Shown here: positions 19,400-38,098 of the stretch, piece after piece
Position numbering within the stretch: position 1 is the stretch's first letter
Layout: each line of letters begins with the position of its first letter
Source of the DNA: Actinomycetota bacterium
Lineage (GTDB): Bacteria > Actinomycetota > Aquicultoria > Aquicultorales > Aquicultoraceae
Length of the DNA stretch: 39,169 nt
Direction of reading: 5' to 3'
NCBI GenBank assembly: GCA_014859275.1
Contig: JACUUO010000009.1
Location: 1-39,169 of the forward strand
Position numbers and translations under genes: made by a program
Notes under the pieces: model-generated
Databases searched by the model: none
Told to the model about the DNA's origin: nothing
What the model saw: only the letters and a program-made list of their open reading frames with translations

Positions 19400-20191
19400 T
19401 CAGACAGCTTTTGTTATGCTGTAGTGTGAGGCAACCCTTTCTAAAAGAGTATTAAGGGATATCTTACTCTTGTTTTTCTTCTCTTGTTTATCAAGTTCAG
19501 CCAAGATAGCCTCAACAAAGGCCCCGTCTCCTAAGATGCGCTCATCATATGCTTGTAGGTTGCTTTTCTCTTGTCGTGGCAGCACAGCAAGACTTCGTTT
19601 TAGGCCTCCGCCTGAAAGGTCACTTCTTTTGCCCTGCGCTATCCCATCGCGCATAAATTCCGTTAGCCTCCTCCTTGCTTCTGTCCTACTTTTACCAAAG
19701 AAAGATAACGTGCGGTCGGGATCATACCAGGAATATCGTCTCTTCCCCATAAGCGCAGCATAACCGGAGTAGGGCCAAAGAGACAGTGCTTTAACATCGG
19801 AGATGATACCTGCCCTTACCGGATTTAGGTGGATGTATCTAACAAGCTCTAAAAAATACTTGTCCTCTTCAACTACGAAAGACTTATACCGGTTCTGAAA
19901 CAGGTGCCCTGCTCTTTTATGCCTTCTGTTAAAGTACACTGCATACCCAGTTAGAAGCCTTCGCATAAAGGTGGAAAGGGATGTATTTAAGGGCCGAACA
20001 AGCATATGGGCGTGATTTGGCATAAGGGTAAAAGCGTAGATATGGACGCCCTCTCCTCCGGCAAGACAGGAGAGCTGCTTAAGTAGCTGCTGGTAGTCTT
20101 TTTCGTCTTTAAAGATCTCTTTTCTCTCGATGCCCCTGAAGATAACGTGCTGAAGCACTCCTGGGATATCAAGCCGTGGGCCTCTTGGCAT
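19400..20191 (-). CDS. REP-associated tyrosine transposase (RAYT, Y1_Tnp)
   Basis: The 263-residue product opens with MPRGPRLDIPGVLQHVIFRG, as is typical of RAYT proteins. It has the HUH-type motif MPNHAHMLVRP and the catalytic region KYFLELVRYIHLNPVRAG, which carries the nucleophilic Tyr. Such enzymes nick single-stranded hairpin ends. The C-terminal 80 residues are more variable. The ATG overlaps no neighbour; its 5' side carries the likely element end (20240-20311). This is a lone mobile gene, and nothing suggests it serves the adjacent genes. Confidence 0.9.
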   Translation of the reverse strand: MPRGPRLDIPGVLQHVIFRGIERKEIFKDEKDYQQLLKQLSCLAGGEGVHIYAFTLMPNHAHMLVRPLNTSLSTFMRRLLTGYAVYFNRRHKRAGHLFQNRYKSFVVEEDKYFLELVRYIHLNPVRAGIISDVKALSLWPYSGYAALMGKRRYSWYDPDRTLSFFGKSRTEARRRLTEFMRDGIAQGKRSDLSGGGLKRSLAVLPRQEKSNLQAYDERILGDGAFVEAILAELDKQEKKNKSKISLNTLLERVASHYSITKAV

Positions 20192-25422: not shown

Positions 25423-26574
25423 CTACGCAATCTCGACAAGCTGCTCCAGATGCCAGGGAATTCCATGCCTATGTGTAAAGAGGTAATATTTCTCAAGGCC
25501 CTCTTTAAGGGCGGATAACGACCTGCCCACTCTTATGGTCTTGTAGCCCCTGGCTAAAACGGTAATCTCACCCAGATCCGGGAGTATATATAGATTCTCA
25601 AAGGCGCGACCGGCATCGAAAGTCTTCTTTTCCCCCCCGCTTATATCGGCATGTATATTTCTTGCGGCTATCTGTCCCTGCTCCATCGCTATGTGGGCCA
25701 CCTTTGGCACGTTCTTTCTACCATAACTGCACGCATCGCCGGGGACGTAGATATTTGCATATGCTTCAGAAGATAGATCATCATTGACGGGTATAAAGCC
25801 ATCCTTAGCTGAGAACTCAAGCCCCTGGAGAAGTTCCGGCGCCTCAAGCTTCCCCACGGCACAGATTACATCCGATGGGACCTCCACATCGCCCTTTAAT
25901 ATGGCAACGCCAGGTCTTGCCGCAATCAGGTTCTTGCCAAGGTACAGATGTATACCGCGTTGTTCAAAATTTGCGGTAACCAGATCACAAGCTTCCCGCC
26001 CGAGGTGAATTAAAAGCCGGTGCTTCTCTTCAGCCAGGTTCAGCTCGAATTTGTCCCGTATCCCCTTTTCCCTCAGGTAAACATCTATCCAGCCCAGGTA
26101 TTCGGCGCCCGGCCCAGGTCTCTCGCCCTCTATGGCTACGGTGATTGATCCGCCATCCATCTTGCCTATAATTCGGGTAAGCTTGAGCACATCAGGAAAA
26201 TCGCATGGAAAGAGAATATTCTCGTTTCCCTTGATATGACCACTTTTCGATCTCCAGCCAGCAGCAATTACCAGGTAATCATATTTCAGCTCATTGCCAC
26301 TTGCCAAGCTCACCGCATTATTTTCCGCATCTACTACGACCGCTTCATCATGATAGAAATTAATGCCTAGCTTATTGAGGACCGGGCCGATTTTGATTGA
26401 TATATCTTCCAGCTCCCTGCGTCTTGGCGGAAGCCAGATTAGGCTGGGGGTATATACCATTGAATCGCTCTTATCGATAACCGATATATTCATATCGCCT
26501 GCGTCCATCCTTCTTAGCCAAAGAGCCGTCTCCATGCCAGCGAAACCGCACCCTAAAACAACCACATTTTTCAC
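25423..26574 (-). CDS. SQR/NDH-2-like FAD-dependent oxidoreductase
   Basis: The 383-residue flavoprotein starts with the FAD motif VVVLGCGFAGMETALWL and has a second dinucleotide segment, the KYDYLVIAAGW motif, and the C-terminal FAD-binding NIYVPGDACSYG. This matches the sulfide:quinone oxidoreductase / type II NADH dehydrogenase superfamily. No redox-active cysteine pair typical of SQR is evident besides the Cys in the FAD motif, so NDH-2 or another quinone reductase is equally possible. I chose GTG 26574 because AAGGGAGA lies 7 bases before it; GTG 26592 is the alternative. It is divergent from the rhodanese gene, and the two may share control. Confidence 0.75.
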   Translation of the reverse strand: MKNVVVLGCGFAGMETALWLRRMDAGDMNISVIDKSDSMVYTPSLIWLPPRRRELEDISIKIGPVLNKLGINFYHDEAVVVDAENNAVSLASGNELKYDYLVIAAGWRSKSGHIKGNENILFPCDFPDVLKLTRIIGKMDGGSITVAIEGERPGPGAEYLGWIDVYLREKGIRDKFELNLAEEKHRLLIHLGREACDLVTANFEQRGIHLYLGKNLIAARPGVAILKGDVEVPSDVICAVGKLEAPELLQGLEFSAKDGFIPVNDDLSSEAYANIYVPGDACSYGRKNVPKVAHIAMEQGQIAARNIHADISGGEKKTFDAGRAFENLYILPDLGEITVLARGYKTIRVGRSLSALKEGLEKYYLFTHRHGIPWHLEQLVEIA

Positions 26575-26631
26575 AATTAAATCTCCCTTCACTTACATAA
26601 GCGCGGATTTGTTAGATATATTACCCAATTG

Positions 26632-26655: not shown

Positions 26656-26820
26656 TATTATCAAGCTGAATTTTTTGGACCTATTGCCTTTGCCGGTAAG
26701 CATTCCATGCTTCAGGTAGGAGGAATTTGGGATTGAGAGCGGTTAACAAAGAAAGACCCGTATTACCGTCTTTATTAAAAGCTGGCAGCTGATCGCTGTT
26801 TCAAACATTAAGGAGAACTT

Positions 26821-27231
26821 ATGGCACATGAACATAAACGTCACAGATATAAGCGACCCAGGCGCGGGCATCTAATTAGTTACGAGGAGCTTCTATTCGA
26901 GCCAGAAAGGATCACCAAAGAAGACCTAAAAAAGATGATCGACGAAGGCAAAAATCCCTTGATTCTTGATGTCAGGGGCGCCCAGGACTACATGGAGAGC
27001 GAAATTAAAATCAAGGGATCAGTAAGAATTCCGCCGGCTCAAATCCATGACCTAATCGATAAATTGCCTAAGGATAGACCGGTTATCACCTACTGAGACT
27101 GACCACATGAAGAAACAAGCGCCTGGGTGGCGCTTATGTTAAAGGGCCATGGGTTCACTAAAGTGTGGCCACTGAAGGGTGGGACTGCCGAATGGGTTGA
27201 AGCAGATTATCCTGTCGAACCTAAGGACTAG
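26821..27231 (+). CDS. Single-domain rhodanese, predicted selenoprotein with U-x-U loop
   Basis: ATG 26821 follows AAGGAGAACTT. The frame to TAG 27229-27231 has 136 residues and just two interruptions, TGA at 27094-27096 and TGA at 27100-27102. Before them is a rhodanese N-terminal half (NPLILDVRGAQDYMESEI, KDRPVITY); after them, in the same frame, PHEETSAWVALMLKGHGF, KVWPLKGGTAEW and YPVEPKD. The interrupted loop reads ITY-U-D-U-PHEETSA, where related rhodaneses have Y-C-x-C-PxE. Both cysteines are thus replaced by predicted Sec92 and Sec94. Rhodaneses move sulfane sulfur, or act in selenium or redox chemistry, through the loop thiol. A hairpin of bacterial SECIS type follows at once. It lies upstream of, and in line with, the lpd-pdh operon. 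Confidence 0.85.
27117..27135 (+). promoter_or_regulatory. Bacterial SECIS-like hairpin in rhodanese gene
   Basis: AAGCGCC (27117-27123) pairs perfectly with GGCGCTT (27129-27135) around the loop TGGGT. The loop begins 22 bases after the second TGA and 28 after the first, within the 16-37 base spacing of bacterial SECIS elements. A G is among the first two loop bases, as the SelB consensus requires. Confidence 0.7.
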
Positions 27232-27344: not shown

Positions 27345-28739
27345 TTGAGTGAAGTTAGCTATGATATCGCAGTAATTGGCGGTGGTCCCGGCGGCTATGC
27401 CGCTGCGCTGCGAGCCGCCCAACTAAACCTTAAGGTGGCCATCATTGAAAAAGATAAGGTCGGTGGGACATGCCTTCACCATGGATGCATCCCGACTACC
27501 AGCCTCTTACAGTATGCAAGCGTGCTCGACAATATCAACCGGTCGGACAAATTCGGAATCAAGGTTGAGGGCGTCTCATACGACTGGCAAAGTGTCCAGA
27601 AGGCTAAAAATGTGGCCGTAAATCGCCTTTTCATGGGCTTAAAAACGCTTCTAAAACACCGCGGAGTGGAGACAATCAATGGGTCAGCAAGGTTTGGGGA
27701 ACCTGGCCTGGTATCAGTTGATGGCGAGACGGATATCCGTACCGTAAGGGCGACAAACATTATTATCGCCACCGGCTCCTCACCCCAGACTATCCCAAAC
27801 CTTCAAGCTAACAGCAACCTCACTATGGACACCAACCAGGCCCTTGAAATAGATAAGGTACCCAATTCCATTTCAATAATCGGCGGTGGTGTATATGGCG
27901 TTGAGTTCGCTTCATTGTTCAGGTCTTTCGGATCCGAGGTATCAATTATCGAGGTTGCGCCCAGACTCCTGCCCCGCGACGATATAGATATATCGAAGCA
28001 TCTGGAGAGAGCACTCGCTAAACGAGGTATTAAAATACATACGGGGACGAAGCTTGAAGGGGTGCGGAGGATAGATAGAGGTATCGAGATTGAGATCTCA
28101 AAGGGCGATGAGCGCAAAACCATCGTCTCCGATAAGCTACTGGCAACCGTCGGTAGAACCGCAAATATGGCCGATATCGATATCGAATCGCTCGGCATAG
28201 AGACTAGGGATGGGTTCATAAAGGCTGGTCCCGGCATGAGAACGACGGCCGATAGCATATACGCTGTTGGAGACGTTACTTATAACCCACAATATGCCAA
28301 TTTTGCCTTCTCGGAAGGGATTCACGCTGCAGAAACAATCGCGGGCCTCAATCCTCCCGAGCTTAACTTAAAGCAGATACCTATTTACACCTTCGGTTAC
28401 CCTGAGGTAGCAAGGGTGGGCTATACAGAGGATGAAGCAAGGCAAGCCGGTTTCGATATCGAAATCGTCGGTCTTCCCTTCCAGGTGATACCGAGATCTG
28501 CGATTAATAAAGAAGATATTGGGTTTGCAAAGACGATTGCCGTTAAGGGTGGACCCATCATCGGCATTCACCTTATCGGGCCTGATGTAGTTGATTTGAT
28601 TCCTGAGGCAATGCTGATAACAAACTGGGAGGCCACGGCACAGGATATGGCGCAATTCCTCCACCCACACCCGACTTTTACGGAAGCGATTGGGGAAGCG
28701 GCGCTAAAGTTAGCTGGAAAACCACTTCATGCCCTATAA
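27345..28739 (+). CDS. lpdA: Dihydrolipoamide dehydrogenase (E3)
   Basis: The 464-residue flavoprotein has the FAD motif VIGGGPGGYAAALRA, the redox disulfide GGTCLHHGC (Cys43, Cys48), an NAD motif IIGGGVYGVEFAS, the second FAD motif IYAVGDV, and the C-terminal HPHPTFTEAIGEA with the catalytic His-Glu pair. It reoxidises lipoyl-E2 with NAD+. After the disulfide the sequence is IPTTSLL; most E3 proteins have IPSKALL. Start TTG 27345 follows GGAGG. It is the first gene of the 2-oxoacid dehydrogenase operon, 113 bases after the rhodanese gene; that gap shows no clear promoter. Confidence 0.95.
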   Translation: MSEVSYDIAVIGGGPGGYAAALRAAQLNLKVAIIEKDKVGGTCLHHGCIPTTSLLQYASVLDNINRSDKFGIKVEGVSYDWQSVQKAKNVAVNRLFMGLKTLLKHRGVETINGSARFGEPGLVSVDGETDIRTVRATNIIIATGSSPQTIPNLQANSNLTMDTNQALEIDKVPNSISIIGGGVYGVEFASLFRSFGSEVSIIEVAPRLLPRDDIDISKHLERALAKRGIKIHTGTKLEGVRRIDRGIEIEISKGDERKTIVSDKLLATVGRTANMADIDIESLGIETRDGFIKAGPGMRTTADSIYAVGDVTYNPQYANFAFSEGIHAAETIAGLNPPELNLKQIPIYTFGYPEVARVGYTEDEARQAGFDIEIVGLPFQVIPRSAINKEDIGFAKTIAVKGGPIIGIHLIGPDVVDLIPEAMLITNWEATAQDMAQFLHPHPTFTEAIGEAALKLAGKPLHAL

Positions 28740-28775
28740 AAATGACTATCTGGCTACTTTACAGGAGGTGAGGAT

Positions 28776-29753
28776 GTGGAAGTTAAATCATTAGAGCTGA
28801 ACACGCAGCAGCTGATGGAGATATACTACTTTATGAGGCTTGGGCGAGCTATTGAAGAGCGCCTCGAGCTCTTATATAAAGGTGGGAGATTGCCCGGAGC
28901 AATATACTTGGGGCGTGGCCAGGAAGCAATCGAAGTGGGCGCATCCTATGCGCTCGAACCGGGAGATATGCTCGCTCCCACCCACCGGGATATGATGTCC
29001 CAGCTCCCAAGAGGCATAACGGCAAAGGAGATTTTCACCCAACACTACGCAAGGACAAATAGCCTAACGCGCGGCAAAGGAGAGGATAATTACCAGGGGG
29101 ATTTAAAGCGAGGAACCTTTGCAACCGTTAGTATGCTCCCAGACTTTTATCCAGTTGCAGCTGGCGCCGCACTCGCCTTTAAGATCCGCAACGAGAAAAG
29201 GGTTGCGATGACCTATTGCGGCGAAGGCGCGACGTCCGTAGGGGACTGGCATGAATCCATAAATGTCGCTTCGGTCTTAAATCTTCCGGTGGTCTTCATA
29301 GTCATCAACAACGGATACGCCTACTCCACCCCGGTATATAAGGAGATGAAGGTGGCAAACGTTGCCGACAGGGCATGCGCATATGCAATACCCGGTGCTG
29401 TAGTTGATGGCAATGACGTTATCGAGTGCTACCGGGAGACTAAAAAAGCGGTCGATAGAGCTCGAGATGGGGGCGGTCCCACCCTTATCGAAGCGAAAAC
29501 AATGCGGATGCGCGGCCATGCCGGTCACGACCCGGCCAAATATATGGCAACGGAAATAATCGATCTCTGGACACGGAGGGATCCGATAGTACGTTTCGAA
29601 AATTACCTGATTGAGCGCGGCCTGTTAACTGACGAATCTAAAAGAGAAATTATCAACCGGATAAACGCTGAGGTTGAAGATGCTGTTCGTTTTGCTGAAG
29701 AGAGCCCTTATCCAGAGGGGAAGGAGGCCATTGAAGATGTCTACCGCGGGTAA
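28776..29753 (+). CDS. pdhA: 2-oxoacid (pyruvate-type) dehydrogenase E1 alpha
   Basis: The 325-residue protein carries the thiamine diphosphate motif as CGEGATSVGDWHES through VFIVINNGYAYSTP, with the closing NN pair, and the phosphorylation-loop region RMRGHAGHDP. GRAIEERLELLYKGGRLPG is the usual N terminus. It decarboxylates the 2-oxo acid and works as an alpha2beta2 tetramer with the next gene. Pyruvate, acetoin or branched-chain acids are all possible substrates; motifs do not separate them. Start GTG 28776 follows AGGAGGTGAGG. The end overlaps the next gene by 17 bases. Confidence 0.92.
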   Translation: MEVKSLELNTQQLMEIYYFMRLGRAIEERLELLYKGGRLPGAIYLGRGQEAIEVGASYALEPGDMLAPTHRDMMSQLPRGITAKEIFTQHYARTNSLTRGKGEDNYQGDLKRGTFATVSMLPDFYPVAAGAALAFKIRNEKRVAMTYCGEGATSVGDWHESINVASVLNLPVVFIVINNGYAYSTPVYKEMKVANVADRACAYAIPGAVVDGNDVIECYRETKKAVDRARDGGGPTLIEAKTMRMRGHAGHDPAKYMATEIIDLWTRRDPIVRFENYLIERGLLTDESKREIINRINAEVEDAVRFAEESPYPEGKEAIEDVYRG

Positions 29754-30729
29754 TCAGAAAGGGACCAGCTACATTGACGCGATATCCCAAGCACTCTGGG
29801 AGGAGATGGAACGAGACCCGAGCATCTTTATAATGGGCGAGGATATTGGAATCTATGGTGGGGCTTTTAAGGTAACCGAGGGGTTTATTGATCACTTCGG
29901 CCCAGAGAGAGTAATCGATATGCCAATTGCAGAAGAAGCTTTTATAGGGATGGGAGTCGGGGCCGCGCTTATGGGAATGCGCCCAATAGTCGAAGTCCAA
30001 TACGCCGATTTTATATCGTGCGGCTGGGACCAGATTGTAAACGTCGCGGCAAAGATGCACTACCGGACCCGAGATGCTGTCCCAATGGTCATCAGGGGTC
30101 CTTCCGGAGCTGGCTTAAGGGCAGGACCATTCCATAGCCAGAGCCCGGAAGGCTGGTTTGCGCACGTTCCAGGCCTAAAGGTCATCGTCCCCGGCACCCC
30201 TTATGATGCCAAAGGGCTCCTAAAGGCCGCTATAAGGGATGATAACCCCGTCATTTACTTCGAGCACAAATACCTTTATCGCAGGTTGAAAGAGGTTCTC
30301 CCAACCGGGGATTATACAGTGCCTATCAGTAAGGCCGATGTGCAAAGAGAGGGAGATGACGTAACTATCGTCACCTATGGAGCGATGTTACAGACCGCTT
30401 TGGAGGCCGCCAGGAGAGCCCAAGAAAAGGGCATCTCGGTTGAGGTAGTTGATCTTAGAACAATATTCCCTCTGGATAAAGACACAATTCTAAACTCAGT
30501 CGCTAAGACAAGCAAGGCGATCATGCTTTATGAAGATACAAGAACGCTTGGAATAGGTGCGGAGATCTCGGCCATCATCGCCGAGGAGGGGTTCGAGAAT
30601 CTAGATGGGCCGATCATCAGGGTCTCGTCCCCCGATGCGCCAATACCTTACAGCCCACCGCTTGAGGATTTCTTCCTCCCGCAGGTGGACGATGTTCTTG
30701 CAGCTATAGACAAGTTATCCGCTTATTAA
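29737..30729 (+). CDS. pdhB: 2-oxoacid (pyruvate-type) dehydrogenase E1 beta
   Basis: From ATG 29737, with AAGGAGG 9 bases upstream, the protein is 330 residues, the normal E1 beta length. It has IFIMGEDIGIYGGAFKVT, containing the glutamate that activates thiamine, VIDMPIAEEAFIGMGVGAA, and the C-terminal transketolase fold with VSSPDAPIPYSPPLE. A TTG at 29674 would add 21 residues inside the E1 alpha gene and is rejected. It is the partner of E1 alpha in the same operon. Confidence 0.94.
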   Translation: MSTAGNQKGTSYIDAISQALWEEMERDPSIFIMGEDIGIYGGAFKVTEGFIDHFGPERVIDMPIAEEAFIGMGVGAALMGMRPIVEVQYADFISCGWDQIVNVAAKMHYRTRDAVPMVIRGPSGAGLRAGPFHSQSPEGWFAHVPGLKVIVPGTPYDAKGLLKAAIRDDNPVIYFEHKYLYRRLKEVLPTGDYTVPISKADVQREGDDVTIVTYGAMLQTALEAARRAQEKGISVEVVDLRTIFPLDKDTILNSVAKTSKAIMLYEDTRTLGIGAEISAIIAEEGFENLDGPIIRVSSPDAPIPYSPPLEDFFLPQVDDVLAAIDKLSAY

Positions 30730-30744
30730 ACGGGGGTGTTTAAA

Positions 30745-32205
30745 ATGACAGTTTCTTTAACAATGCCCCGGCTCGGAGAGACGGTCACCGAGGGTACCAT
30801 TATTAGGTGGCTTAAAAAAGAGGGTGAATTCGTAAACAAAGATGAAAACATCGTCGAAGTTTCAACCGCTAAAGTTGAAACGGAAATACCCTCCCCCGCC
30901 AGTGGTAAGGTGAGTAGAATAATCGTACAAGAGGATCAAACGGTCCCCGTCAATGCAGAACTCGCCCAAATAGATGAGACCGCGGTACCGGGGGTCCCAC
31001 CGGAGGAAGTAAAGCCACCGGAAAAGGTCGAGGTCCCACCGGCGCCTGTGGCTGTTCCCACACCACCTCCAGAGGTAAAGCCAGAGGAGAGACGGCCCGA
31101 AGAAGTACCTGCAGAAGTCGGCTTCGTCTCACCTATCGTGAGGAAGCTCGCACGGGAGCACAACATCGATTTATCCCAAGTCAAAGGAACTGGCACCGGC
31201 GGGAGAATAACGAGGCAGGATGTAGAGAGATATATCGAGGTACACAAACCCGAAGTTCCTAAGCCACCAATTGCTGTGGCCCCGCCGGTATCTCTTGCGC
31301 CCATGCCGGCAGCCCAGATTCCGGAGTACGAGCTTCCGGGGGCACAGGCCGTTGGGGCCGAAAGACCCGCCCCGCCGGTGCCTCCACCATTAAAGGAAGT
31401 TGCGCCTGCTCCACCGCCAGAGGTAGCGCCACCAGAAGTCAAGCCGCCAGAGGTAGCACCCGCCCCGCCGCCGGCGGTACCAGCATACCCGGGTGAGCGA
31501 ATCGTTCCAATGCCCCACCTGAGGCGCGAGATCGCCAAACATATGGTCAATAGCCGACGCATATCAGCGCACGTTACGGCCATCGTTGAGGTTGATATGT
31601 CCAACGTGGTTAAACAGAGAGAGCGGGTCAAGGAGGCATTTAAGAAGCGCGAGGGATTTTCCCTCACTTACCTGCCATTTGTTGCAAAGGCGACGATAGA
31701 TGCACTGCTCAACTTCCCGACGTTGAACGCCAGGATAGTCGATGAGCATAATATGGCGCTTCATGATTACATAAACCTCGGTATTGCCGTAGCGGTTGAA
31801 GACGGGCTGATAGTGCCTGTTGTTAAAAGTGCCGAGGGGATGAGCTTGGTAGGTCTTGCCCGCGCGATACACGACCTAGCCGAAAAGGCAAGGTCCGAGA
31901 GGCTCTCGCCGGATGATGTTACCGGCTCAACCTTTACCATTACAAACCCGGGCTCGTTCGGCTCGCTCATACAGACGCCGATAATAAATCAGCCGAATGT
32001 GGCTATTCTAAGCCTTGAGATGATACAAAGGCGACCGGTTATAATCGATGAAGCCATTGCGATCAGGCATATGGTGTTCATGCCTCTATCCTACGACCAC
32101 AGGTTAGTCGATGGAGCAGTGGCGGCACAATTTTTAAACCGGATAAAACATAACCTTGAAACGTGGGATGAAAAATTCTATCCTGATTTACAGGCATATG
32201 CATAG
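30745..32205 (+). CDS. pdhC: 2-oxoacid dehydrogenase E2 (lipoyl acyltransferase)
   Basis: The 486-residue E2 has one lipoyl domain (residues 1-78; Lys43 in STAKVETEI is the lipoylation site), a long Pro/Ala/Val linker, a peripheral-subunit-binding domain (FVSPIVRKLAREHNIDL through RITRQDVERYIE), a second Pro-rich linker, and a catalytic domain ending with YDHRLVDG (catalytic His452 and Asp456). It forms the core of the complex and transfers acyl groups to CoA. Start ATG 30745 follows GGGGGTG; a GTG at 30736 is less likely. The lipoyl group would be made by the lipB and lipA genes at 36425-38098. Confidence 0.95.
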   Translation: MTVSLTMPRLGETVTEGTIIRWLKKEGEFVNKDENIVEVSTAKVETEIPSPASGKVSRIIVQEDQTVPVNAELAQIDETAVPGVPPEEVKPPEKVEVPPAPVAVPTPPPEVKPEERRPEEVPAEVGFVSPIVRKLAREHNIDLSQVKGTGTGGRITRQDVERYIEVHKPEVPKPPIAVAPPVSLAPMPAAQIPEYELPGAQAVGAERPAPPVPPPLKEVAPAPPPEVAPPEVKPPEVAPAPPPAVPAYPGERIVPMPHLRREIAKHMVNSRRISAHVTAIVEVDMSNVVKQRERVKEAFKKREGFSLTYLPFVAKATIDALLNFPTLNARIVDEHNMALHDYINLGIAVAVEDGLIVPVVKSAEGMSLVGLARAIHDLAEKARSERLSPDDVTGSTFTITNPGSFGSLIQTPIINQPNVAILSLEMIQRRPVIIDEAIAIRHMVFMPLSYDHRLVDGAVAAQFLNRIKHNLETWDEKFYPDLQAYA

Positions 32206-36206: not shown

Positions 36207-36424
36207 ACCCTAATCTTCACTATTTCTAAGGATTTACAAGGATTTTCTAAGCATGACAAGTGAATATTTGACACCTGGGCAAAGTCCATTTCTGTTTACG
36301 AAGCAAAATATCAAGGGTATATTACCTAATAAAAGTGGGTGTTATAAACTTTGTATTGTAATTATGACCTTGAGACGTGGGATCCCTCACCCGATCTAGC
36401 AAAGATAACATAGAAGGATCAGTC
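36207..36424. other. Gap before lipB
   Basis: No gene. AT-rich, with a TTGACA at 36267-36272 lacking a good -10 and with TATTGTAATTATG (36353-36365) as a possible -10 region. lipB may be transcribed from here. Confidence 0.3.
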
Positions 36425-37123
36425 ATGAAATGCTGGGTTGTAGAGCTTGGATCAATCGATTACCAGAGCGCACTGGACTTGCAGGCAAGCTTGGTCGCAC
36501 TCCGGCGTGGCTCCAAGATTCCCGATACCCTTCTCCTTCTCGAGCACCCGCATACCTATACCGTGGGCAGACGAGCTAACCTGTCCCACCTCTTATTAAG
36601 CGAAAAAGAGATGGCGAGCCGCGGTATCCGTCTCCACGCGATCGATCGGGGCGGAGAAATCACATATCATGGGCCCGGCCAGCTAGTCGGTTACCCCATA
36701 ATGAAGATCGCCGGCATCCCCGGGGTTAGGGATTACCTGAGAGGGCTTGAGGATGTGTTAATAAAAACGACATCCGATTTCAGTGTAAGGACCGAAAGAC
36801 TTCCAGGATATCCTGGTGCCTGGTTCGGGTTAGAAAAAATCGCCGCGATCGGTCTCAGGGTAACCCGGGGAGTAAGTAAGCACGGTTTTGCCCTTAACGT
36901 ATCGACCGACCTCTCCTACTTCGAGGGTATCATTCCCTGTGGAATCCACGATAAGGGGGTAACGTCCCTCTCTGAAATACTCGGTCACGTGGTACCGATC
37001 TCCCTCGTACAAAAATCGGTCATTAAACACTTCGCTGCAGCGTTTAACCTCGATCTGGTGCACATTCAAAAGGAAGAGATATTGGAGTTGGGCCTTCAAG
37101 GCGACCGAGCGTCCGCAGCGTAA
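36425..37123 (+). CDS. lipB: Octanoyl-[ACP]:protein octanoyltransferase
   Basis: The 232-residue LipB has TYTVGRRAN, the signature RGGEITYHGPGQLVGYPI, HGFALNV, and the catalytic pair Lys (LEKIAAIG) and Cys (IIPCGIHDKGVTSL). It moves the octanoyl chain from acyl-carrier protein to the lipoyl domain of E2. Start ATG 36425 follows AAGGA; an upstream ATG at 36377 would add 16 residues without homology. It is followed after 48-54 bases by lipA. The target E2 gene lies 4 kb upstream on the same strand. Confidence 0.95.
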   Translation: MKCWVVELGSIDYQSALDLQASLVALRRGSKIPDTLLLLEHPHTYTVGRRANLSHLLLSEKEMASRGIRLHAIDRGGEITYHGPGQLVGYPIMKIAGIPGVRDYLRGLEDVLIKTTSDFSVRTERLPGYPGAWFGLEKIAAIGLRVTRGVSKHGFALNVSTDLSYFEGIIPCGIHDKGVTSLSEILGHVVPISLVQKSVIKHFAAAFNLDLVHIQKEEILELGLQGDRASAA

Positions 37124-37133
37124 GTAATTTAAA

Positions 37134-37167
37134 GCGGTAATCATCCAGGTGATTATTACAATACCGC
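37134..37167 (+). promoter_or_regulatory. Intercistronic hairpin between lipB and lipA
   Basis: GCGGTA (37134-37139) pairs with TACCGC (37162-37167), with ATCA/TGAT pairing inside. There is no T-run, so it may affect mRNA stability or translation of lipA, which lacks a clear ribosome site. Confidence 0.35.
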
Positions 37168-37177
37168 ATATGTGAAA

Positions 37178-38098
37178 ATGGATAATCGTATGAACCACAA
37201 TAAAAAGGCTGAACATAATCCGAATAGTTGCCGTAGCGGCAACTCAGGCCCCATGCCGCAGAAGCCTCACCACCTGCGAATCAGGGTTTCGCAGGGGCCA
37301 AACTACCGTTTTGTCAAAAACACTCTCCGTCAATTGGAACTCCATACGGTCTGTGAGGAGGCGGGCTGTCCCAATATCTACGAGTGCTTTGAATCTAAAA
37401 CGGCAACCTTTCTCATACTTGGTGATACCTGCACGCGTAACTGCCGCTTCTGCTTGGTAAGTGGCGGCAAACCCCTCCCTCCTGACCTGGATGAACCACT
37501 GCACGTTGCCCAAGCTGTATCAAAGTTAGGACTTGAGTACGCGGTCATAACCTCGGTAACGAGAGACGACCTCCTGGATGGTGGAGCATCGATCTTTTCC
37601 CAAACCATATGGGAGATACGGAAGAACAGCCCAGACTGCGGGATAGAAGTGCTGATCCCCGACCTTGGCGGCAACTGGCAGGCCCTTAAGGCGGTTATCG
37701 ATGCAGGCCCTGATGTATTAAATCATAACATTGAAACCATCCCCCGCCTCTACCCGCAAATCAGGCCCGCCGCAGATTATGAAAGGTCGCTTCGCCTGCT
37801 TAAGTTAGCAAAAGAGATGGGGTTTACCGGCCGGACAAAATCCGGGATAATGGTTGGCCTAGGCGAAGAAATAGATGAACTAATCGAAGCAATGACAGAT
37901 TTACAGCATCATAACTGCGATATTATAACAATCGGACAGTACCTGGCTCCATCCAAGGACCACTTCCCCATTGCACGCTACTACACGCCGGCCGAATTTG
38001 AAGAGATCGAAAAAATTGGTCGAGCGATGGGATTCTTCCACGTTGAGTCCGGGCCCCTGGTTAGAAGTTCCTACCACGCAAAAGAACAGTACGGCTAG
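37178..38098 (+). CDS. lipA: Lipoyl synthase (radical SAM)
   Basis: About 306 residues. It has both iron-sulfur motifs of LipA: the auxiliary cluster CEEAGCPNIYEC and the radical SAM motif CTRNCRFC. GGDILNH-like VLNHNIETIP and the C-terminal RSSYHA serine motif (ligand of the auxiliary cluster) are present. It inserts two sulfurs into the octanoyl chain made by LipB. The start is uncertain: GTG 37172, ATG 37178 and ATG 37190 all lack a ribosome site, and homology begins near ATG 37253 (MPQKPHHLR). The first ~25 residues are therefore doubtful. Confidence 0.94.
   Translation: MDNRMNHNKKAEHNPNSCRSGNSGPMPQKPHHLRIRVSQGPNYRFVKNTLRQLELHTVCEEAGCPNIYECFESKTATFLILGDTCTRNCRFCLVSGGKPLPPDLDEPLHVAQAVSKLGLEYAVITSVTRDDLLDGGASIFSQTIWEIRKNSPDCGIEVLIPDLGGNWQALKAVIDAGPDVLNHNIETIPRLYPQIRPAADYERSLRLLKLAKEMGFTGRTKSGIMVGLGEEIDELIEAMTDLQHHNCDIITIGQYLAPSKDHFPIARYYTPAEFEEIEKIGRAMGFFHVESGPLVRSSYHAKEQYG

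Follow-up and report, generated by a model that had tools for sequence, protein, structure and literature searches.

A rhodanese-fold protein with two predicted selenocysteines in a single active-site loop (U-x-U)

Results

A rhodanese reading frame with two internal UGA codons

The DNA analysed here, referred to as the window, is a stretch of 39,169 nucleotides (positions 1 to 39,169 of contig JACUUO010000009.1, assembly GCA_014859275.1) from a member of the Actinomycetota. The part of it that concerns us contains the following features.

25423..26592, minus strand: divergent flavin oxidoreductase, upstream neighbour (weak assignment)
26810..26815, plus strand: Shine-Dalgarno-like AAGGAG, 5 nt 5' of the ATG (from the sequence)
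26821..27231, plus strand: predicted U-x-U seleno-rhodanese gene, 136 residues, TAG stop (frame, profile matches and model)
27094..27096, plus strand: UGA 1, codon 92, predicted Sec-92 at the rhodanese catalytic-cysteine position, which is Cys in most of family NF041203
27100..27102, plus strand: UGA 2, codon 94, predicted Sec-94, the constant Sec of NF041203
27117..27135, plus strand: predicted bacterial SECIS hairpin AAGCGCC-UGGGU-GGCGCUU, 7-bp stem, loop UGGGU (folding, covariation and covariance model)
27345..28739, plus strand: dihydrolipoyl dehydrogenase (lpd), downstream of the rhodanese (TIGR01350, 489 bits, cut-off 408.8)

Between the ATG at 26821 and the TAG that ends at 27231, the only internal stops are the TGAs at codons 92 and 94, and reading through them yields the rhodanese loop VITY-U-D-U-PHEETSAWVAL (YUDUPHEETSA). 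With both codons taken as Cys, the product matched the Pfam profile Rhodanese (PF00581) over residues 32-127 with 58 bits (cut-off 22.2) and the NCBIfam profile NF041203, 'rhodanese-related (seleno)protein', over residues 28-135 with 116.6 bits (curated HMM cut-off 115), so that rhodanese homology spans both UGAs. An earlier note on this DNA, made from the sequence alone, had described the two TGAs as the sole breaks in a rhodanese frame, falling on both cysteines of the active loop. The frame and the two profiles confirmed the first point, and the second was borne out by the homologues, which show C-x-U, U-x-U or C-x-C exactly at these positions.

AlphaFold2, run on 73 homologues, predicted a rhodanese fold (mean pLDDT 92), and Foldseek found the model closest to solved rhodaneses of the PDB (E about 1e-8). 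Invariant columns were D50, R52, Y91, 92, 94, E97, S100, A101, A104, G111 and G120, residue 92 occupying the position of the rhodanese nucleophile. Classical thiosulfate sulfurtransferases have a catalytic Cys in a six-residue active loop, C-x-x-x-x-R. The loop of the window protein differs from it in being two residues longer, in having the invariant Glu97 instead of Arg and in its predicted Sec nucleophile. As a loop with Glu and without Arg should accommodate anions, thiosulfate among them, poorly, thiosulfate would probably not be the main substrate.

The host genome encodes a full set of selenocysteine genes

The Sec machinery that the earlier proposal presupposed was found complete in the host genome (2.83 Mb, 98% complete), where selD, selA, selB and tRNA-Sec (selC) form one cluster on contig C138.

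C138, 7341-8258: selD, with one in-frame UGA
C138, 9836-11725: selB (SelB, 411.8 bits)
C138, 11786-11877: tRNA-Sec (73.8 bits), 60 nt behind selB

On this contig selA lies immediately upstream of selB, and selD precedes selA. This full cluster and the UGA within selD itself indicate that the genome has every gene of the bacterial Sec set and, besides the rhodanese gene, at least one more gene with a UGA from a known selenoprotein family.

A predicted SECIS hairpin follows both UGAs

The published model of the bacterial SECIS has a loop of 3-9 nt, an upper stem of 4-16 bp, a G in the first two loop positions, a distance of 16-37 nt from the UGA and an energy of at most -7.5 kcal/mol (PMC13188914 Fig. 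2). The loop of the window hairpin starts 21 nt past UGA 2 and 27 nt past UGA 1, and the hairpin (loop 5 nt, G at position 2, stem 7 bp, -11.4 kcal/mol) passes these criteria for both codons, which agrees with the earlier proposal of a hairpin at SECIS distance. An equally good fold was obtained in 1 of 200 shuffles.

The homologues gave further evidence. After UGA 2, all 60 U-x-U sequences examined had the codons Ser AGY, Ala GCC, xxK and GYG, the choices of AGY, of GCC and of G at the third base each being fixed in 60/60. The third base of the Ser codon and that of a later Ala codon, both silent, faced each other as C-G in 29 of the sequences, U-A in 26 and U-G in 2, and were unpaired in 3. 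There were thus 26 compensatory swaps between C-G and U-A, requiring about 16 independent switches on a poorly resolved tree. Stem pairing was scored in a fixed codon register; automated best-hairpin folding often picked longer, unrelated stems. All five scored pairs were present in 53 of the 60 U-x-U and 57 of 61 C-x-U sequences (110/121 Sec sequences together), a level reached by 4.9% of random synonymous recodings, and full pairing was found in none of 11 C-x-C homologues. Two C-x-U sequences were instructive: in L201 the stem is kept by A-U and C-G in place of C-G and G-C, and in L205 the closing pair is U-A instead of C-G. As judged from these codon choices, the SECIS stem is maintained through synonymous codon usage. 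A chance hairpin was ruled out by the covariation at silent sites and by the comparison with random recodings.

A covariance model trained solely on C-x-U genes recognized positions 27100-27138 with 37.8 bits (E 4e-10), a match not fully independent, as protein-coding conservation is common to the model and the window; its next-best match in the window reached 7.7 bits, with nothing else above 8 bits. An Rfam scan of the window at gathering cut-offs returned no match. Because C-x-U and U-x-U genes have the identical hairpin and only one hairpin was seen, the simplest reading is that a single SECIS serves both UGAs, six nucleotides apart, which we regard as quite likely.

U-x-U rhodaneses recur in distant phyla

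The pattern [YF]-U-x-U-x-x-E-x-x-S-A was run on 84,980 species genomes, one genome each, and translation verified at least 59 U-x-U rhodaneses besides that of the window. Among the matches listed, about 20 of 80 were due to chance or were not rhodaneses and were dropped on translation; the U-x-U rhodaneses among them came from at least 8 bacterial phyla and about 60 sampled genomes. The hosts among these matches were Chloroflexota (18), Nitrospirota (7), Poribacteria (6), Thermodesulfobacteriota and other 'Deltaproteobacteria', Armatimonadota, Acidobacteriota, Planctomycetota and Actinomycetota, with 11 'Myxococcota' labels that stem from the NCBI placement of the name 'Deltaproteobacteria bacterium'. 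SelB scored above its cut-off in 44 of 50 genomes with a U-x-U rhodanese among the matches listed, the other six probably being incomplete bins. Wherever they were scanned, the U-x-U homologues were best described by NF041203, which all 73 aligned members match.

One of the homologues, from another family of the window's order (locus L094, identical to L016 and forming a single locus with G011, counted once), is 38% identical and has the same two TGAs. A search with NF041203 at E <= 1e-12 in ten sampled members of the window's own family found no match. No close relative with sense codons thus exposed the gene as a pseudogene, the same-order member being U-x-U as well. The earlier argument that two mutations would hardly have landed solely on the two cysteines was strengthened by the recurrence of these UGAs. 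That the gene is a pseudogene or the product of sequencing error, derived from a C-x-C or C-x-U rhodanese by two nonsense changes, may be suggested by the metagenome-like assembly (299 contigs) and by two TGAs seen without context, yet it is extremely improbable given the same two UGAs in at least 59 other genomes of at least 8 phyla, the intact remaining frame, the SECIS pairing kept at synonymous sites and the Sec operon.

The second selenocysteine is constant and the first is variable

We then counted matches to a pattern that accepts Cys as well as Sec at either site, in 397 genomes from the phylum of the window, 297 from that of locus L066 and 380 from the Chloroflexota (the phylum of L077). 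U-x-U was matched 2, 6 and 7 times, respectively, and C-x-U 15, 46 and 54 times; these totals of 15 and 115 are pattern matches, 61 of the C-x-U matches having been verified as rhodaneses. C-x-C gave three pattern matches in the three samples, and U-x-C was not seen in any of them. Two further pattern matches, L195 and L199, were due to chance or were not rhodaneses and were dropped on translation. In 379 genomes of the Pseudomonadota (the phylum of L078), there were only C-x-C rhodaneses (n = 4). Some genomes contain both the C-x-U and the U-x-U form, and the first site changed between these about 17 times on the tree, in which 50 of 120 inner branches are open. The counts of C-x-U and U-x-U in these samples, in which U-x-C is missing, make Sec-94 the anchor of the motif and Sec-92 a variable extra.

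We considered the possibility that UGA 2 alone is decoded as Sec and that UGA 1 mostly terminates translation or is misread, for instance as Cys or Trp, giving a protein with one Sec. The predominance of C-x-U in the three sampled phyla (115 versus 15 U-x-U and no U-x-C) would fit with this, as would the occurrence of the same SECIS in both forms, which is therefore not specially built for UGA 1. Yet UGA 1 is found exactly at the catalytic position in at least 60 sequences, with about 17 changes on a weak tree, which points to selection, and its 27-nt distance from the SECIS loop is within the published 16-37 nt. We consider decoding of UGA 2 alone improbable.

Possible flavoprotein and haem partners of U-x-U rhodaneses

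In the window, the rhodanese gene is followed by lpd-pdhA-pdhB-pdhC (27345-32205) and, further on, by lipB-lipA (36377-38098). The lpd and pdh genes with lipB and lipA make up a lipoate-dependent pyruvate dehydrogenase set. In the same-order relative L094/G011, lpd likewise adjoins the rhodanese downstream (477 bits), and a MerA/Lpd-like flavoprotein stands beside the U-x-U rhodanese of two Poribacteria (L121, L143). Lpd is thus a possible reductase partner of the window rhodanese; it may also be a bystander, since lpd starts the pyruvate dehydrogenase operon.

The upstream flavin oxidoreductase weakly resembles seleno-type sulfide:quinone reductases (95 bits, far below the cut-off of 525) and the domain N-terminal to SelD (89 bits, also below cut-off). 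Elsewhere in the window, positions 19400-20191 (minus strand) hold a gene resembling REP-associated tyrosine transposases (72.8 bits, cut-off 80).

Eight of the U-x-U rhodaneses among the matches listed (L066, L067, L070, L092, L100, L135, L141 and L142) are fusion proteins that continue C-terminally into a multihaem cytochrome c domain, in which the CxxCH motif occurs exactly eight times; the L066 fusion has 552 aa, a signal-like N-terminus and the Pfam domain Multi-haem_cyto. As flavoprotein and haem settings both supply electrons, they favour a redox reading of the U-x-U rhodanese.

Discussion

The Sec gene cluster, the spread of U-x-U homologues over 8 or more phyla and the stem kept at synonymous sites suggest that both UGAs specify Sec, and we put at about 90% the probability that the product of the window gene is an NF041203 selenoprotein of rhodanese fold, with SECIS-directed Sec at both 92 and 94. 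SelB bound to the SECIS, which lies 3' of UGA 2 within the coding sequence, would serve both codons.

That seleno-rhodaneses with one Sec exist, as the earlier note had stated, is on record: NF041203 (rhodanese_LYCAU, 'Rhodanese-like form 3') is catalogued as C-x-U with a single Sec (PMC13188914 Table 1; PMC9312934). The window protein has in common with it the HMM, the loop Y-[CU]-x-U-[P]-x-E-x-[TS]-S-A-R, the SECIS and the second Sec, and differs in that the first Cys is also replaced by Sec. In an inventory published in 2026, which covers 119 families of prokaryotic selenoproteins, NF041203 appears as C-x-U and TsoB as U-x-x-x-x-U, and a U-x-U rhodanese is absent from it (PMC13188914). The earlier note had also known of no U-x-U rhodanese; this holds for the inventory, but with at least 59 others the window protein is not a one-off, and U-x-U is a variant that recurs within a known family and seems not to have been catalogued. 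A full-text literature search for U-x-U or diselenide together with rhodanese returned nothing on point, though there may be an earlier passing mention.

Other proteins resemble this one in part. TsoB, a rhodanese/DsbD selenoprotein (NF045694), is likewise rhodanese-related and has two Sec, but its motif is U-x-x-x-x-U in a DsbD-like fusion, whereas the window protein is a single domain with U-x-U and scores 19.3 bits against the TsoB cut-off of 805. SelL, found in fish, has U-x-x-U, and a diselenide in its redox motif was reportedly described by Shchedrina in 2007. Two-Sec redox pairs also occur in a Prx-like protein with U-x-x-U and in a ferredoxin-thioredoxin reductase (PMC2398784). In all three both redox Cys are replaced by Sec, as here, but their folds are different and their motifs are U-x-x-U or separated sites instead of a U-x-U rhodanese loop. 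Conversely, the DedA-rhodanese and single-domain C-x-C rhodaneses of Pseudomonadota have the same Y-C-x-C-P-x-E loop, but with two Cys, no UGA and no full SECIS pairing (0/11).

With regard to function, the invariant Glu97, the lack of a loop Arg, the Lpd/MerA-like flavoprotein neighbours and the eight octahaem fusions suggest that redox catalysis, and not classical thiosulfate:cyanide sulfurtransferase activity, would be the main role of the protein. An atom of sulfane sulfur or selenium (from polysulfide, persulfide or selenopersulfide) would be accepted by Sec-92, and Sec-94 would resolve the adduct, a 1,3 Se-Se bond closing as sulfide or selenide is released. To regenerate the diselenol, a partner would reduce this bond again, probably a flavin disulfide reductase (in the window, for example, the neighbouring Lpd) or, in the octahaem fusions, the haems. 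We give such diselenol/diselenide cycling on sulfane sulfur or selenium a little less than an even chance. More tentatively still, there may be a widespread class of 1,3-diselenol/diselenide rhodaneses, each made with one SECIS and reducing or exchanging sulfane sulfur or selenium, which in some anaerobes would be part of an undescribed, octahaem-wired module for chalcogen respiration or detoxification.

An alternative is that the protein is a classical sulfurtransferase, with thiosulfate or persulfide as the donor of sulfur for some acceptor, for instance as sulfur supply near the lipoate genes, and that selenium only tunes its reactivity. The rhodanese fold and the presence of lipB and lipA further along the window are in line with this. 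Against it stand the loop, in which an invariant Glu and no Arg would ill suit the thiosulfate anion, and the second conserved chalcogen with its haem and flavin partners, which point to redox cycling. We find this alternative unlikely, at about one chance in a few.

Somewhat less likely again is a role in handling selenium or tellurium oxyanions, be it selenite reduction and detoxification or the delivery of selenium to SelD. A rhodanese lipoprotein of Geobacter sulfurreducens, ExtH, shares its gene cluster with the multihaem ExtKL, in which a Sec is predicted, and loss of extI from this cluster impairs the reduction of selenite and tellurite (PMC6148476). The octahaem fusions, set beside this system by its description, resemble it in pairing a rhodanese with a multihaem cytochrome and in the presence of Sec, but ExtH and ExtKL are separate genes and the predicted Sec is in ExtKL. 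Furthermore, the genes next to the window copy include none specific to selenium, which speaks against an oxyanion role there.

Replacement of both active-site chalcogens of one loop by Sec is rare, and here it recurs across distant phyla. The occurrence of C-x-C, C-x-U and U-x-U in one small soluble fold makes the benefit of the second selenium testable, and these genes offer a natural system in which to study how two UGAs so close together are served by a single bacterial SECIS. Where an annotation pipeline allows for just one UGA in NF041203, the U-x-U members will probably be cut short. Apparently, another form of seleno-rhodanese also occurs in the window's phylum: the matches L059 and L062 (genomes G073 and G136), together with one in G045, are a different rhodanese with one in-frame UGA, the motif in L059 and L062 being Y-C-S-N-[FY]-N-U (C-x-x-x-x-U).
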